Assembly: GCA_011389745.1 (NCBI GenBank)
Contig: JAABTQ010000005.1
Location: 62,001-126,000, forward strand
Direction: 5' to 3'
Length of the DNA: 64,000 nucleotides
Source: Desulfobacteraceae bacterium
Lineage (GTDB): Bacteria > Desulfobacterota > Desulfobacteria > Desulfobacterales > SKZT01
The translations under genes and the position numbers were made by a program. The notes beneath the pieces are model-generated. The model did no database searches. It had not been told where the DNA came from and worked only from the letters and a program-made list of their open reading frames with translations. Shown here one piece after another: positions 39,397 through 44,545 of this stretch; within the stretch, counting starts at the first letter, position 1; each line of letters opens with the position of its first letter.

Positions 39397-40458
39397 ATGA
39401 TGATTAAAAATTTGTTCGGTAAACATACATTGACAAGCCTTGCCAAGACTTGTGGTTGAGCGGCAAAAATCAGCCCGGTCGGGCTAAATGAATTACTGGC
39501 ATCCCTTCCTGTGAATCAGGATCCGAACCTTCTGGTGGGATTCGGATCAAACGACGATGCCGGTGTATACCGTATCACCGATGAGATCGCCATTATAACC
39601 ACAGCGGACTTTATCACACCACCGGTGGATGACCCCTTTCTGTTCGGCCAAATTGCCGCTGCAAACGCCATAAGTGATGTATACGCTATGGGTGGAAAAC
39701 CCCTAACCTGCTTGAACCTGGTGGGATTTCCCTCCAAAAAGCTTTCTCCGGGGATTCTTCATGGAATTGTTGCCGGTGCACTGGAAAAGATAACCGAATC
39801 CGGGGCGGTCCTTGCCGGAGGACACACTACGGAAGACGATGAACCCAAATTCGGCCTTTCAGTTGTCGGGGTCGTTCATCCTGAAAAAATTTGGACCAAC
39901 AGCAATGCCAGGCCTGGGGATGCTCTTTTGCTGACTAAACCGATCGGAAGCGGTGTTCTGTTCAATGCCAATCGCAAAAAACTGGTTTCCCAGGAGGCAA
40001 TGACAGAATGCACAGATATTCTCATCACCTTGAATAAGATCGCTTCCGAGGTCATGCAAGACTTTGAAATCCACTCCGTCACTGACATCACCGGATTCGG
40101 TCTTGCAGGACATAGCTTCGAGGTGGCCAGGGCTTCACAGGTGACTTTCAAAATTATGGTGGACAGTTTGCCCATTATGCGCGAAGCCCTTGAAATGTAT
40201 AAAAAGGGAATTAATACCGGCATGAATTCATCCAACCGGGAACTGGTGAAAGAAATTGCTTTGTTTAAAAAAGCTTTTCCTCCATGGCATCAGGAAATTC
40301 TCTATGATCCCCAAACCAGTGGCGGTCTCATGGTTTCATTGCCTGCCAACCAGTCGGAAACATTACTCAAAACACTTCACAAGCATGGGGTCAAGCGAGC
40401 CTGCATAATCGGTAACGTTATAGAATTGCAGGATAGAACGTACTTAGTGTTCGAATAG
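39397..40458 (+). CDS. selD: Selenide, water dikinase with in-frame UGA (selenocysteine)
   Basis: SelD makes selenophosphate from selenide and ATP for selenocysteine synthesis. A start at the GTG 39511 gives 315 aa and lacks the glycine/Cys loop. The same frame is open upstream through a single TGA at 39457-39459 to ATGs at 39397 and 39400, with GAGGAAG upstream. The read-through text is SLAKTCG-U-AAKISPVGLNELL, matching the family opening where the catalytic position is Cys or Sec (E. coli GAGCGCKISP). Sec would be residue 21 of 353. The rest is standard: LAGGHTTEDDEPKFGL, SVTDITGFGLAGHS, YDPQTSGGLMVS. A SECIS-like hairpin follows the UGA. Confidence 0.9.
39460..39495 (+). promoter_or_regulatory. 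Bacterial SECIS-like hairpin of selD
   Basis: Directly after the UGA codon, AGCCC-GGTC-GGGCT (39472-39485) can pair perfectly over five bases with a GGUC loop. The first loop G lies 17 bases after the UGA, within the usual distance of a bacterial SECIS, and GGUC occurs in the loop of the E. coli fdhF element. A flanking UCA/UGA pair may extend the stem. Pairing is seen directly; SelB binding is inferred. Confidence 0.65.
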
Positions 40459-40624: not shown

Positions 40625-42001
40625 GTGAAAAAAATAAAAATTCTCATAATGGCGGTCAGTTTGCTCCTGACACCTTTAATATACCAGGTGCAGTCAGCCC
40701 AAAATCCCGGCACACCACCTCCGGTTGCTTCCATACTGGTTCGCCAGGGCGATTTTGCACACAGTTTGCTGGAAATATTGGAATTGGATACGGCTTATTC
40801 AGAACCGCAGGCGCTGGAAATGCTGACTGAACTCGGGATTGCTCCGAAAAACGGATGGATCTCGGATTACCCCATGACACCCGACATCATCGGCGAATTA
40901 CAGGATGCCGTGGCAAGTGCCTCGGATAATGGATATCTGACCATAACCCGCCCAGAGGCGTTAAACCTTTTTCAAACCCTTGTTGCGGATTATGGATTGC
41001 CGATTGCTCCGGATCATAGTCCTGAAAATTACAACGAAACTCCACCATCCTTTGGATACTATAATTACACAGAACCGACGGTAATCAACAACTACTATCA
41101 CCATAGCGGACCCCCGGTGATCACATATTATCCACCCCCTTACGGGCATTATCACCTCTACAGTTGGGTTCCATATCCATTCTGGTGGGAAAATTTTTGG
41201 TTTTCAGGTTATTTTGTGTTGAATGATTTTCACAGAACTTCACGTGTTGTCATTCTTAACAGGCGTGGGTACAAAAAACATTTCAGAAGTCACAAGAGTG
41301 GCTTTGGGGTGGTCAGCAATCGCTCAAAAAGATATTACCATCCTAAAAAAGGTTTTGCAGTTTATCCCTCGAAACGAAAATTTGAAAAAGATTTTCGTTC
41401 AGGAAGCAACACAGGCAGACGATGGTCCAAACCGCATAAATCCGGAATCAGAGATAAGTCACGGTTTTTGAGACATGGTCCCGAACAAAAAGGCGGTTCC
41501 GGCAAAAAGGCTTTCCTTCGGGGTGATAACCGTTCCAATCGTTCCAATGACAAATTCCGCAATGATACAAGGCGTCAAATCAGTAATCGTTCTTCGAAAA
41601 ATCCCAGGCAACTAAACCAATGGATGGAGAGAAGAGGAACCCGCAGCAGAACGCGAACCGGAAACAATTCACCGGAAATAAAGGGACCCCGAAATAACCG
41701 TGGTTCCGTAAATGCTCCCCGTAATAATAACACTGCCATCCATGAAAATCGTCAAACCAACAACCGTGGTATCCGCGATAACCGCATTCATAACTTTCGT
41801 GAAAAGCGATTCCGGGATAATCGATTCCGTGATAATCGATTCCGTGATAATCGTCGTGACAACCCTGTTTTTCCCCAAAACCGCTCCAACACTGTTCGTG
41901 AAAATCGCAACCCTGTTGTACATGAAAATCGGAGAAGTGTTGACCGCTCCCGTTCCTTTGAAGGAAACCGATCTTTTCAAGGACGTGATCGCAGCTTTTA
42001 A
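40625..42001 (+). CDS. Secreted Arg/Asn-rich repetitive protein
   Basis: A 458-aa exported protein of unknown function. A signal peptide (hydrophobic 6-20, cleaved near QSA) is followed by a globular stretch (30-130) and a Tyr/Pro/His-rich segment (YYHHSGPPVITYYPPPYG). The second half is low-complexity and strongly basic, built from Asn-Arg-rich text such as FRDNRFRDNRFRDNR. There is no catalytic motif that I recognise. It looks like an envelope or extracellular structural or nucleic-acid/anion-binding protein. A stable hairpin follows 8 bases after the stop. Confidence 0.75.
   Translation: MKKIKILIMAVSLLLTPLIYQVQSAQNPGTPPPVASILVRQGDFAHSLLEILELDTAYSEPQALEMLTELGIAPKNGWISDYPMTPDIIGELQDAVASASDNGYLTITRPEALNLFQTLVADYGLPIAPDHSPENYNETPPSFGYYNYTEPTVINNYYHHSGPPVITYYPPPYGHYHLYSWVPYPFWWENFWFSGYFVLNDFHRTSRVVILNRRGYKKHFRSHKSGFGVVSNRSKRYYHPKKGFAVYPSKRKFEKDFRSGSNTGRRWSKPHKSGIRDKSRFLRHGPEQKGGSGKKAFLRGDNRSNRSNDKFRNDTRRQISNRSSKNPRQLNQWMERRGTRSRTRTGNNSPEIKGPRNNRGSVNAPRNNNTAIHENRQTNNRGIRDNRIHNFREKRFRDNRFRDNRFRDNRRDNPVFPQNRSNTVRENRNPVVHENRRSVDRSRSFEGNRSFQGRDRSF
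41807..41851 (+). repeat. 15-bp tandem repeat coding FRDNR
   Basis: Three units of 15 bp (CGATTCCG[G/T]GATAAT) lie head to tail in frame, each encoding RFRDN; a fourth, degenerate unit follows. Adjacent diverged copies suggest this part of the secreted protein grew by slippage. Confidence 0.85.
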
Positions 42002-42008
42002 AAGTATT

Positions 42009-42034
42009 GAGGAGGGCTATCAACCCTCCTCTTA
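42009..42034. terminator. Bidirectional terminator hairpin
   Basis: A perfect 8-bp stem GAGGAGGG / CCCTCCTC with loop CTATCAA lies just downstream of the secreted-protein gene and of the minus-strand gene ending at 42080. The T-tract is weak (TTAGTTCT) on the plus strand, so efficiency is uncertain. Confidence 0.65.
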
Positions 42035-42079: not shown

Positions 42080-42277
42080 TTATACACGACCTCCCAACCA
42101 TCCCGGAGGATCATTGCGTTTTGAGGTCCATGAGGGACTATTTTCGCTGGGTGCACTGTACTCCGAACTCATCGCATTCATTTCTTGTTGGCGTTTTTCG
42201 TCGCTTTCGTGTACACGGTCCCGACATTCACCTTCGTCACACCTACCAGTTATATCTCTTGATGGTATTTTTTTCAT
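42080..42277 (-). CDS. Small hydrophilic protein of unknown function, 65 aa
   Basis: A short frame with AGGAG 9 bases ahead of the ATG encodes a 65-residue, highly charged protein starting MKKIPSRDITGRCDEGECR, with Ser/Pro-rich middle and GWLGGRV at the end. It lies about 120 bases downstream of the cysteine-rich small ORF on the same strand and ends 46 bases before the terminator hairpin, as a two-gene unit would. I recognise no family. A longer frame starts at 42325, but only the internal ATG has a ribosome site. Confidence 0.45.
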   Translation of the reverse strand: MKKIPSRDITGRCDEGECRDRVHESDEKRQQEMNAMSSEYSAPSENSPSWTSKRNDPPGWLGGRV

Positions 42278-42397
42278 GGTACTTTTTCTCCTAATTTCCC
42301 TTAATATATTTAAAGCCTTTTTCATTTCAATTGCATGTGGCTTCTTTATCGTTCAGGCATTTATTCAGCATATTTTACATTAAGACCACCCATCGGG

Positions 42398-42544
42398 CTA
42401 CCAAGTGCAATCATTAAAGCAATTTCGCTCCCGGGTTTTGCAAATGGAAACACCATCTTCCTGCTCAACACATTGAACCCATTCGAGCACACAAAATTGT
42501 TCACATCGAAGGTCCGACATTGGTTCTTTAGTTTCATTATTCAT
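42398..42544 (-). CDS. 48-residue cysteine-rich small protein with mirror-symmetric Cys spacing
   Basis: A frame too short for a standard gene call. AAAGGAG sits 7 bases before the ATG at 42544, and translation gives 48 residues ending CFNDCTW. Six cysteines fall at 14, 18, 25, 35, 42 and 46: spacing 3-6-9-6-3, a palindrome. The CEQFC and CFNDC pairs frame two predicted helices, like a twin Cx3C helical hairpin held by disulfides or a metal. No signal peptide is present, and the N-terminal 13 residues are polar. Not recognised as any named family. Could be an intracellular metal-binding or redox peptide. Confidence 0.55.
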   Translation of the reverse strand: MNNETKEPMSDLRCEQFCVLEWVQCVEQEDGVSICKTRERNCFNDCTW

Positions 42545-42761
42545 GTTATCTCTCCTTTGCGACTACGGTTTTTGAACGGTTTATGGTTCAAAGGTCCGAA
42601 GCAGCAATTTTCAATTCAAACTGCCTTTTCCGACAGAAATACATCGGTGACACTATTTATTTTAGTTGACTGCCAATACATTATCGTTTGAATTGATTGT
42701 TTTATAGTATTTAGGGTAATGCGTTACAAAGTTTTGTCAAGGAAGTCCGTGCATGGGAAAT

Positions 42762-42898: not shown

Positions 42899-44545
42899 AT
42901 GGACACAAATATTCCGACACTGACTGATGCCTATTTGGGTTTACTAGAGAAATACGCGAATCGCAGGGTAAGAAATTCCGAACCCGGTGAAAAAGCACAG
43001 CAACTGGCTGGTCGCTATCTGGAACTGGTAGATGAATACCCCGATAACATGATCGAAAGGGAAAAAAAAGTTCCCGACGAGCTTCTGGAAAAGCTGAAAC
43101 AGGCTGGGTTTTTCGGCATGACCATACCAGAGAAATATGGGGGACTCGGAATGACCCTCAAGGAATATCTTGCTCTTGTGGAATCTATGGCTTCCAAGTC
43201 CGTTGCGGTGGGGATCACAATAATCGCTCATTTGTCAATCGGAATAAAGGGGATCTTGCTATTCGGAAGTCAGGAACAGAAACAAAAGTACCTTCCCGGA
43301 GCCGCATCCGGAAAAATCATTTTTTCTTATGCGCTGACTGAACCCGAAATAGGGTCAGATGCCCAAAACATTACCACGACAGCCGAGTTGTCCGAAGACG
43401 GTTCCTCATATATTGTAAACGGGATTAAAACCTACATTACCAACGCAAACTATGCAGAAGCCATGACCGTCTTTGCCAGGTTCAAATCCGGCGGTCTGGG
43501 TGCTTTTATTGTAGAAACTTCCTATAAAGGTGTCATAATCGGAAAAGAAATGCCCAAAATGGGTCTTAAGGCCAGTTCCACCGCATCAGTCAAATTCGAT
43601 AATGTCCGGGTTCCCCGGGAAAATCTGATCGGTCGTGAGGGTGATGGGTTCAAAATCGCCATGACAATACTAAATTACGGGCGTCTGGCTCTTGGAGCAA
43701 CCTCATCGGGCATCATCAAACGGTCCCTGGAAGACATGGTTAAACGATCATCCTATAGGAAACAATTCGGGGTTGCCATCAAAGAATTCGAACTGATCCG
43801 GGAAATGCTGGTCAGGGCAAAGGTTAACGCAAAGATAGTCTCGGCCATGACCGCATTTTCGACTGATATTTTGGAAAACAACCCAACGGCCAACATTTCG
43901 GTGGAAAGCTCTCACAGCAAGCTTTTCGGTACTACAAGAGCATGGCAGACCGTGTACGATGCGCTTCAGGTTGCGGGAGGTTCCGGATATCTAATGACTC
44001 TTCCCTATGAAAAACGAATGAGGGATTTTCGGGTCACCACCATTTTCGAGGGCACTACTGAAATCCACTCAATATACCCCGCACTTGTACTGGCCAAAAA
44101 GTTGCAAGACCTGCTGAAAAACACCAAGGGGTTTGCTTCTAAACTGAAGCTCGTTTTCCGGTTTCTTTTTCCCGGCTTATTTCAGCCGATAAAGGTCAGT
44201 TCACCTGCTTTGAAACCTGCAGGCCGGATGGTGTCACGGCTGGTTGGAAAAATTTTCTTTTTTACTCTTTTCGGACTTATTCGTTACGGCAAAAATCTTC
44301 GATGGAAACAATTTTTTCTTCGCAGAATCACATTCCTCAGCATGTATAGCTTTGGGATTTTGGCCATGATCGCTCAAATTGAGACCGCTCGTTCGGAAAG
44401 CAAATCCACTGAGAGTGATCTCGACGTACTCCGCTTTTTTGTCCATGAAGCCAGCCAATACAGCAAGCACCATGCCGGTTTGTTTTCAAAAACAACGGAT
44501 CATATCACGGAAAAAGTGTTCAGGACCATTGAATTGCCTGATTAA
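42899..44545 (+). CDS. Acyl-CoA dehydrogenase
   Basis: A 548-aa FAD enzyme that introduces the first double bond in acyl-CoA beta-oxidation or in an acyl-CoA/aromatic degradation branch. Conserved text: YALTEPEIGSDAQNI for FAD/substrate contacts, KMGLKASSTASVKFD, and the family signature GGSGYLMTLPYEKRMRD with IFEGTTEIH, in which the glutamate acts as catalytic base. After residue 400 there is an added 140-aa tail with two hydrophobic stretches (LKLVFRFLFPGLF, VGKIFFFTLFGLI), unlike short-chain enzymes and reminiscent of VLCAD-type C-terminal domains that bind membranes. The start follows AAAGAGGG. Confidence 0.92.
   Translation: MDTNIPTLTDAYLGLLEKYANRRVRNSEPGEKAQQLAGRYLELVDEYPDNMIEREKKVPDELLEKLKQAGFFGMTIPEKYGGLGMTLKEYLALVESMASKSVAVGITIIAHLSIGIKGILLFGSQEQKQKYLPGAASGKIIFSYALTEPEIGSDAQNITTTAELSEDGSSYIVNGIKTYITNANYAEAMTVFARFKSGGLGAFIVETSYKGVIIGKEMPKMGLKASSTASVKFDNVRVPRENLIGREGDGFKIAMTILNYGRLALGATSSGIIKRSLEDMVKRSSYRKQFGVAIKEFELIREMLVRAKVNAKIVSAMTAFSTDILENNPTANISVESSHSKLFGTTRAWQTVYDALQVAGGSGYLMTLPYEKRMRDFRVTTIFEGTTEIHSIYPALVLAKKLQDLLKNTKGFASKLKLVFRFLFPGLFQPIKVSSPALKPAGRMVSRLVGKIFFFTLFGLIRYGKNLRWKQFFLRRITFLSMYSFGILAMIAQIETARSESKSTESDLDVLRFFVHEASQYSKHHAGLFSKTTDHITEKVFRTIELPD

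Follow-up and report, generated by a model that had tools for sequence, protein, structure and literature searches.

Gene A, a 48-codon gene on the minus strand of the window (the whole stretch of 64,000 nucleotides that was analysed), almost certainly represents a real, conserved gene family, and its product might be a cytosolic hairpin whose cysteine thiolates bind a soft metal, a function that we favour tentatively, at slightly less than an even chance. The translation, MNNETKEPMSDLRCEQFCVLEWVQCVEQEDGVSICKTRERNCFNDCTW, carries six cysteines at residues 14, 18, 25, 35, 42 and 46, giving the mirror spacing 3-6-9-6-3, in agreement with the earlier note on this DNA, which had read the same frame and array without naming a strand. 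The AAAGGAG ribosome-binding site that it described before the ATG is indeed present (...gcAAAGGAGagataacATG; Table 1), and the gene does lie in an apparent intergenic gap, since a divergent ORF (42899..44545, plus strand), labelled acyl-CoA-dehydrogenase-like by eye, and a convergent ORF (40625..42001, plus strand) stand on either side. Overlooked in that reading were a second short gene, gene D, and a terminator-like stem. Rfam gave no match within the interval, and no signal peptide is visible in the protein on inspection by eye. The protein matched no Pfam family at E ≤ 10 and no NCBIfam model, in keeping with its first description as undescribed.

Table 1. Coordinates and motifs of the small cysteine-protein genes and nearby elements (window positions unless a locus is given)
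Feature	Position	Strand	Remarks
Hairpin gene A, 48 aa, CX3C-X6-C-X9-C-X6-C-X3C	42398..42544	-	frame reading, relatives, purifying selection
AAAGGAG ribosome-binding site of gene A	42552..42558	-	7 bases 5' of ATG
Gene D, 65 aa, MKKIPSRD..., Cys pair, C-terminal NDPPGWLGGRV	42080..42277	-	AGGAG upstream; homologues in order
Promoter-like site between A and D, TTGAAA-16-TATATT	42303..42330	-	weak; number of sites in the region not above shuffles
Terminator-like stem-loop after D	42009..42031	.	seen on both strands
Second hairpin gene, window's own genome	G000:C3:28245-28343 (locus L154 3213-3362)	+	A' type, 49 aa, seven Cys
Family B loci	L021 9109-9285; L026 10052-10228; L025 3249-3428; others		
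Family C loci	L025 3545-3706; L085 1729-1884; L089 1040-1210; L090 1297-1464; L062 1038-1190		
Subfamily A			CKTRERNC
Subfamily A'			...ESVCxMK...CxCxC; includes the second gene of the window's own genome
Subfamily A''			CYFEAKNCRQxDDGTWDC
Subfamily A'''			CSxxCKxxxxxCEAxG...

Protein searches found gene A members in 10 of 291 genomes of the order (E ≤ 1.2e-7) and one more (G360) in a class sample of 389 genomes, hence 11 genomes in all; a phylum sample of 395 genomes gave no further members above chance level. Four named loci encoding gene A, from MAGs labelled Desulfobacterales or Deltaproteobacteria, overlap with four of the sampled-genome members. All six cysteines and their identical spacing are kept in 10 of the 11 members, the exception being G200, which lacks the first and last; the segment ICKTRERNC is likewise invariant in 10 of 11, and AGGAG-type ribosome sites precede most of the relatives' starts. 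Homologues with conserved cysteines and ribosome site, which the earlier note had suggested looking for, do exist in the order, and the orthologues also carry a signature of selection on the protein. Indeed, pairwise substitution counts over the 33-codon Cys core show mostly synonymous changes in the closer pairs, with 0 non-synonymous and 3 synonymous between G203 and G127, and 2 and 11 between G203 and G187; for G187 and G088 the counts are 9.75 and 9.25 (dN/dS 0.15), and for the window and G234 they are 11 and 18, with dS saturated.

The earlier note held that the absence of a homologous frame from close relatives would speak against the gene. Gene A is indeed absent from the one same-genus genome (G043) and the one same-family genome sampled, so its distribution is patchy; however, clear orthologues in more distant families of the order mark it as patchy rather than spurious. 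The best acyl-CoA-dehydrogenase match in G043 is 37% identical, so the neighbouring acyl-CoA-dehydrogenase-like gene itself seems absent from that genome. Matches in G038, G277, G009 and G245 (E 0.02-0.06), one in G386 of the class sample (E 0.009) and two in the phylum sample near E 0.01, one with a stop and one a fragment, were taken as chance, and a second, degenerate A-like frame in G207 (E 9.8e-4, internal stop) was left out of the count. That gene A is a chance open frame without a product, as its shortness and its absence from G043 could suggest, has next to no probability left, being already contradicted by the conservation, the synonymous bias and the ribosome sites, and by the six-Cys codon pattern, which occurs once in the 64 kb of the window but never in 100 dinucleotide shuffles of it.

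The array extends well beyond gene A. In genome G152 a D gene shares a single open reading frame with another kind of protein carrying the same 3-6-9-6-3 array, which prompted a DNA scan of the 291 order genomes for CX3C-X6-C-X9-C-X6-C-X3C, followed by reading the frames of the fetched candidates. Raw matches occurred in 58 of the 291 genomes, many of them in simple repeats, and a reversed-pattern control matched in about 21 genomes (counted by eye). Candidate places were picked by eye from 80 bases each, dropping simple repeats and visible stops; 47 frames were recovered, and removal of one in G139, which lies inside a 340-aa ORF, left 46. The resulting superfamily, to which gene A belongs by its six cysteines at 3-6-9-6-3, its short ORF and its ribosome site, comprises 46 distinct small proteins, mostly 44-57 aa, from 34 genomes, with a ribosome-site match by simple pattern in 39 of the 46 and several subfamilies grouped by eye (Table 1). 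Of the cores, 89% have a hydrophobic residue at position 9 and 83% a charged or polar one at position 11. A cysteine occupies position 31 in 14 of the 46, the sister subfamily A' having CxCxC and with it seven cysteines.

Because the codon pattern itself selects for the spacing, the claim that the spacing is fixed rests on a profile search and on the G152 member, which was met before the pattern was applied. The search covered 46 hand-chosen genomes, most of them with B or D (below). Of its 21 matches, spread over 11 genomes, 18 show the six-Cys spacing unchanged; the remaining three have lost cysteines without any indel (C1 and C6 in G200, C6 in G216, C1 and C4 in G140), and no member with altered spacing was found among these genomes. 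Tallied over the selected loci, the mirror order of the five spacings occurs 59 times and the other of the 30 possible orders at most 9 times each, a count that is no test because the loci, repeats included, had been picked for mirror spacing. Beside an intact hairpin gene in G211 (L147) lies a degenerate second A''-type copy (GTWDCSSSPRFCQEHC).

The mirror spacing kept over the 46 proteins argues for a hairpin geometry. AlphaFold, run on the window protein with four relatives, predicts a two-stranded β-hairpin with arms 13-27 and 33-47 and a turn at 28-32. The predicted hairpin is β where a helical one had been suggested earlier, but the β assignment itself is of modest confidence (mean pLDDT 77 and pTM 0.35 for the gene A protein, two of five models near pLDDT 56), and the superfamily alignment shows helical periodicity in the N-terminal arm and β-like periodicity in the C-terminal arm. 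Whether the arms are α or β, each of the three Cys pairs would be brought face to face. Foldseek returned no significant relative of the gene A model or of the model of family B (below), and the sole match of the gene A profile among PDB chains was cytochrome bc1 subunit 6 at E 2.4.

Gene D lies 120 bases downstream of gene A on the same strand, with the pattern PSRD...GxC...GECRDRV...NDPPGWLGGRV and no Pfam family at E ≤ 10. A promoter-like site falls between the two genes, and the putative stem-loop after D would mark the end both of the convergent gene and of the unit made up of A and D. Genes of the D type were detected in 49 of the 291 order genomes at E ≤ 0.01, about a sixth, mostly with a CX3C motif (GxCxGEC) where the D of the window has CX4C. 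Gene A is followed by D in the window (genome G000), G234 and G360, and a sister hairpin by D in G127. At the joint in G152 a Leu codon stands where the separate genes in G127 have a stop codon, and the ribosome site of D is kept, so the joining may be incidental or a sequencing error.

Two other families of small cysteine proteins accompany the hairpins. Family B proteins (~58 aa) have cysteines invariant at four positions in a first alignment, and at E ≤ 0.01 they were found in 48 of the 291 genomes of the order; family C proteins (~53 aa) have CCC runs and adjoin family B, with aconitase or UspA genes adjacent in three of the loci listed. Neither has a Pfam family at a meaningful level or an NCBIfam match. 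B stands with C, sometimes also with D, in G135, G249, G151, G187 and G234, and a hairpin with B in G042, G207, G127, G203 and G187. Among the 291 genomes, 23 have both hairpins (33 genomes) and B (43), where 4.9 would be expected; 17 have both hairpins and D (44), against 5.0; and 26 have both B and D, against 6.5. These counts come from hand-typed lists, take B and D at E ≤ 1e-6 and allow for genome kinship only through a family-level count. That count, also hand-typed, finds hairpins in 16 of 73 families, B in 19 and both in 15. The window's own genome has A, A' and D, and no B was detected in it. B, C and D are three further unannotated families, whose genes cluster with those of the hairpins and tend to occur in the same genomes.

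Aconitase directly adjoins the hairpin gene in G174, G127 and G189, and in G152 one 93-aa frame lies between them; in G234, G151 and G249 it stands beside a C-B pair or is separated from it by a single UspA gene. Genes for OsmC and PNPOx-like proteins, named by Pfam, recur near the small cysteine genes, and most other hairpin neighbours are mutually unrelated. No recurrent metal-related neighbour of the hairpin genes was found among the neighbourhoods examined. A 59-aa cysteine-containing protein in G207 (L026 9798-9977) resembles part of a 187-aa PNPOx-like frame in G127 (L166 7030-7593), and is possibly a free-standing version of that domain.

From the Cys pattern, the odd seventh cysteine of the sister subfamily and the neighbouring genes we infer a metal-binding or redox role. 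The chain would form an antiparallel hairpin of two arms with its centre at residue 30, which would place C14 opposite C46, C18 opposite C42 and C25 opposite C35, the residue numbers of each pair adding up to 60. Strict anaerobes keep a reducing cytosol, in which the six thiolates could form a cage around a soft metal, be it a Zn or Cu(I) ion or an Fe-S cluster, and the small thiolate hairpin would then serve to buffer or carry the metal. In subfamily A the near-invariant ICKTRERNC is a candidate docking surface for partners, which might be the other small cysteine proteins encoded nearby, D in the window and B and C elsewhere.

The same pairs could instead serve as a redox switch, reduced and in a loose chain under anaerobic conditions and closing under oxygen or sulfur stress, with as many as three nested disulfides (C14-C46, C18-C42, C25-C35), to give a small redox-dependent chaperone, inhibitor or thiol buffer. 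We regard this as possible and as less probable than metal binding. The strict mirror spacing puts all pairs in the same cross-arm register, C1 and C6 are lost together in G200, as expected of a pair, and family B is modelled by AlphaFold as a helical hairpin (pLDDT 89) with conserved cysteines predicted to face each other by position; however, G216 loses C6 alone and G140 loses C1 with C4, and the seven cysteines of A', the CCC runs of family C and the reducing cytosol also argue against a switch. The OsmC, UspA, PNPOx-like and aconitase neighbours found in several genomes are in line with it, although such stress and Fe-S neighbours fit metal and redox readings alike. With seven cysteines, an A' chain must have one thiol or more that finds no partner in the same chain, and because of this group and of the CCC runs of family C we favour thiolate chemistry over purely structural disulfides. 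Binding of a soft metal, the reading that we prefer, has points against it as well: the recurrent neighbours are stress- or Fe-S-related and include no recurrent metal gene, the Cys-loss variants of G200, G216 and G140 do not fit a single four-Cys metal site, and the predicted fold is unsure and has no structural match.

It is unlikely, if conceivable, that the hairpin is a structural or regulatory adaptor that docks onto an enzyme or onto D, its cysteines merely stabilising the fold through metal or disulfides. The invariance of ICKTRERNC and the recurrent order of hairpin and D, with the two in one ORF in G152, would suit such a role, but no enzyme is constant among the neighbours and the G152 joining carries the doubt noted above. 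Very improbable is a peptide product, with A and D giving rise to a peptide that is modified or secreted, or forming a toxin-antitoxin pair: two adjacent short genes with charged N-terminal parts and variable sequence might suggest one, but no modifying-enzyme, transporter or immunity gene recurs beside A and D, hairpin genes are often found on their own, many genomes have D but not A, and viral contigs, plasmids and phages gave no gene A match.

Known small cysteine proteins resemble the gene A product in part. Bacterial metallothioneins are small, Cys-rich and cytosolic, with CXC or CC clusters; gene A shares the first three traits and has a mirror array instead of clusters, family C being closer in composition, and no curated metallothionein model in Pfam or NCBIfam matched it. 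Small Tims have CX3C-X15/16-CX3C and CHCH proteins CX9C-Xn-CX9C, as given in the passage cited (PMC12114033). These mitochondrial proteins are likewise small, with Cys pairs mirrored on antiparallel arms and nested pairing expected; in contrast, 23 residues separate the outer CX3C pairs of gene A, which enclose an inner Cys pair, its protein is bacterial, and AlphaFold suggests a β-hairpin. We rejected membership, as the spacing (CX3CX6CX9CX6CX3C) differs and there is no sequence relation to a solved member. Plant α-hairpinins are also short hairpins with CX3C pairs, with a 4C motif CX3C-X4-20-CX3C and a six-Cys variant CX3CX3C-X4-20-CX3CX3C in the section cited (PMC11591084); they are plant antimicrobial peptides, whereas gene A encodes a bacterial cytosolic protein with CX3CX6C-X9-CX6CX3C, the 6C motif is absent from it, and its 23 residues between pairs exceed the 20 allowed by the 4C motif. 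The bacterial copper storage protein Csp3 is cytosolic as well, with Cys-lined helices bearing CXXXC pairs in the part of the account cited (PMC5171941), and differs in forming tetramers of four-helix-bundle monomers with 18-19 cysteines, against 48 residues and six cysteines here; gene A had no Pfam or NCBIfam match that would make it a Csp.

More speculatively, and with the odds against it, the order might carry a toolkit of tiny cysteine proteins (the hairpins with B, C and D) that forms a dedicated cytosolic system for handling soft metals, Fe-S or thiol redox, a convergent bacterial analogue of the mitochondrial twin-Cys mini-proteins, with its genes placed as interchangeable modules next to those for aconitase, UspA, OsmC and PNPOx-like proteins. 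This recurrent set, which dozens of the order's genomes carry, appears previously undescribed, because its genes are short, and thus easily missed in annotation, and have no match in the family-model libraries searched; we found no description of such a bacterial family in the open-licence literature. If metal binding or redox switching holds true, the set would open a way to test how these anaerobes maintain usable metals and Fe-S enzymes through pulses of sulfide and oxygen. The fixed mirror spacing amounts to a strict design rule that could be useful for studies of minimal metal or disulfide hairpins.

Two other genes of the window deserve mention. The convergent ORF is Arg/Asn-rich and without a Pfam match; a tandem 15-base repeat (window 41798-41853, 3.7 copies) within it codes for RFRDN units. 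The second is a gene (listed 39511..40458) whose name and active-site motif we take to be those of SelD, and its frame continues upstream past an in-frame TGA (window 39457-39459). Because this TGA falls within TCG-U-AAKISP, the selenophosphate synthetase of the window's genome is probably itself a selenoprotein.
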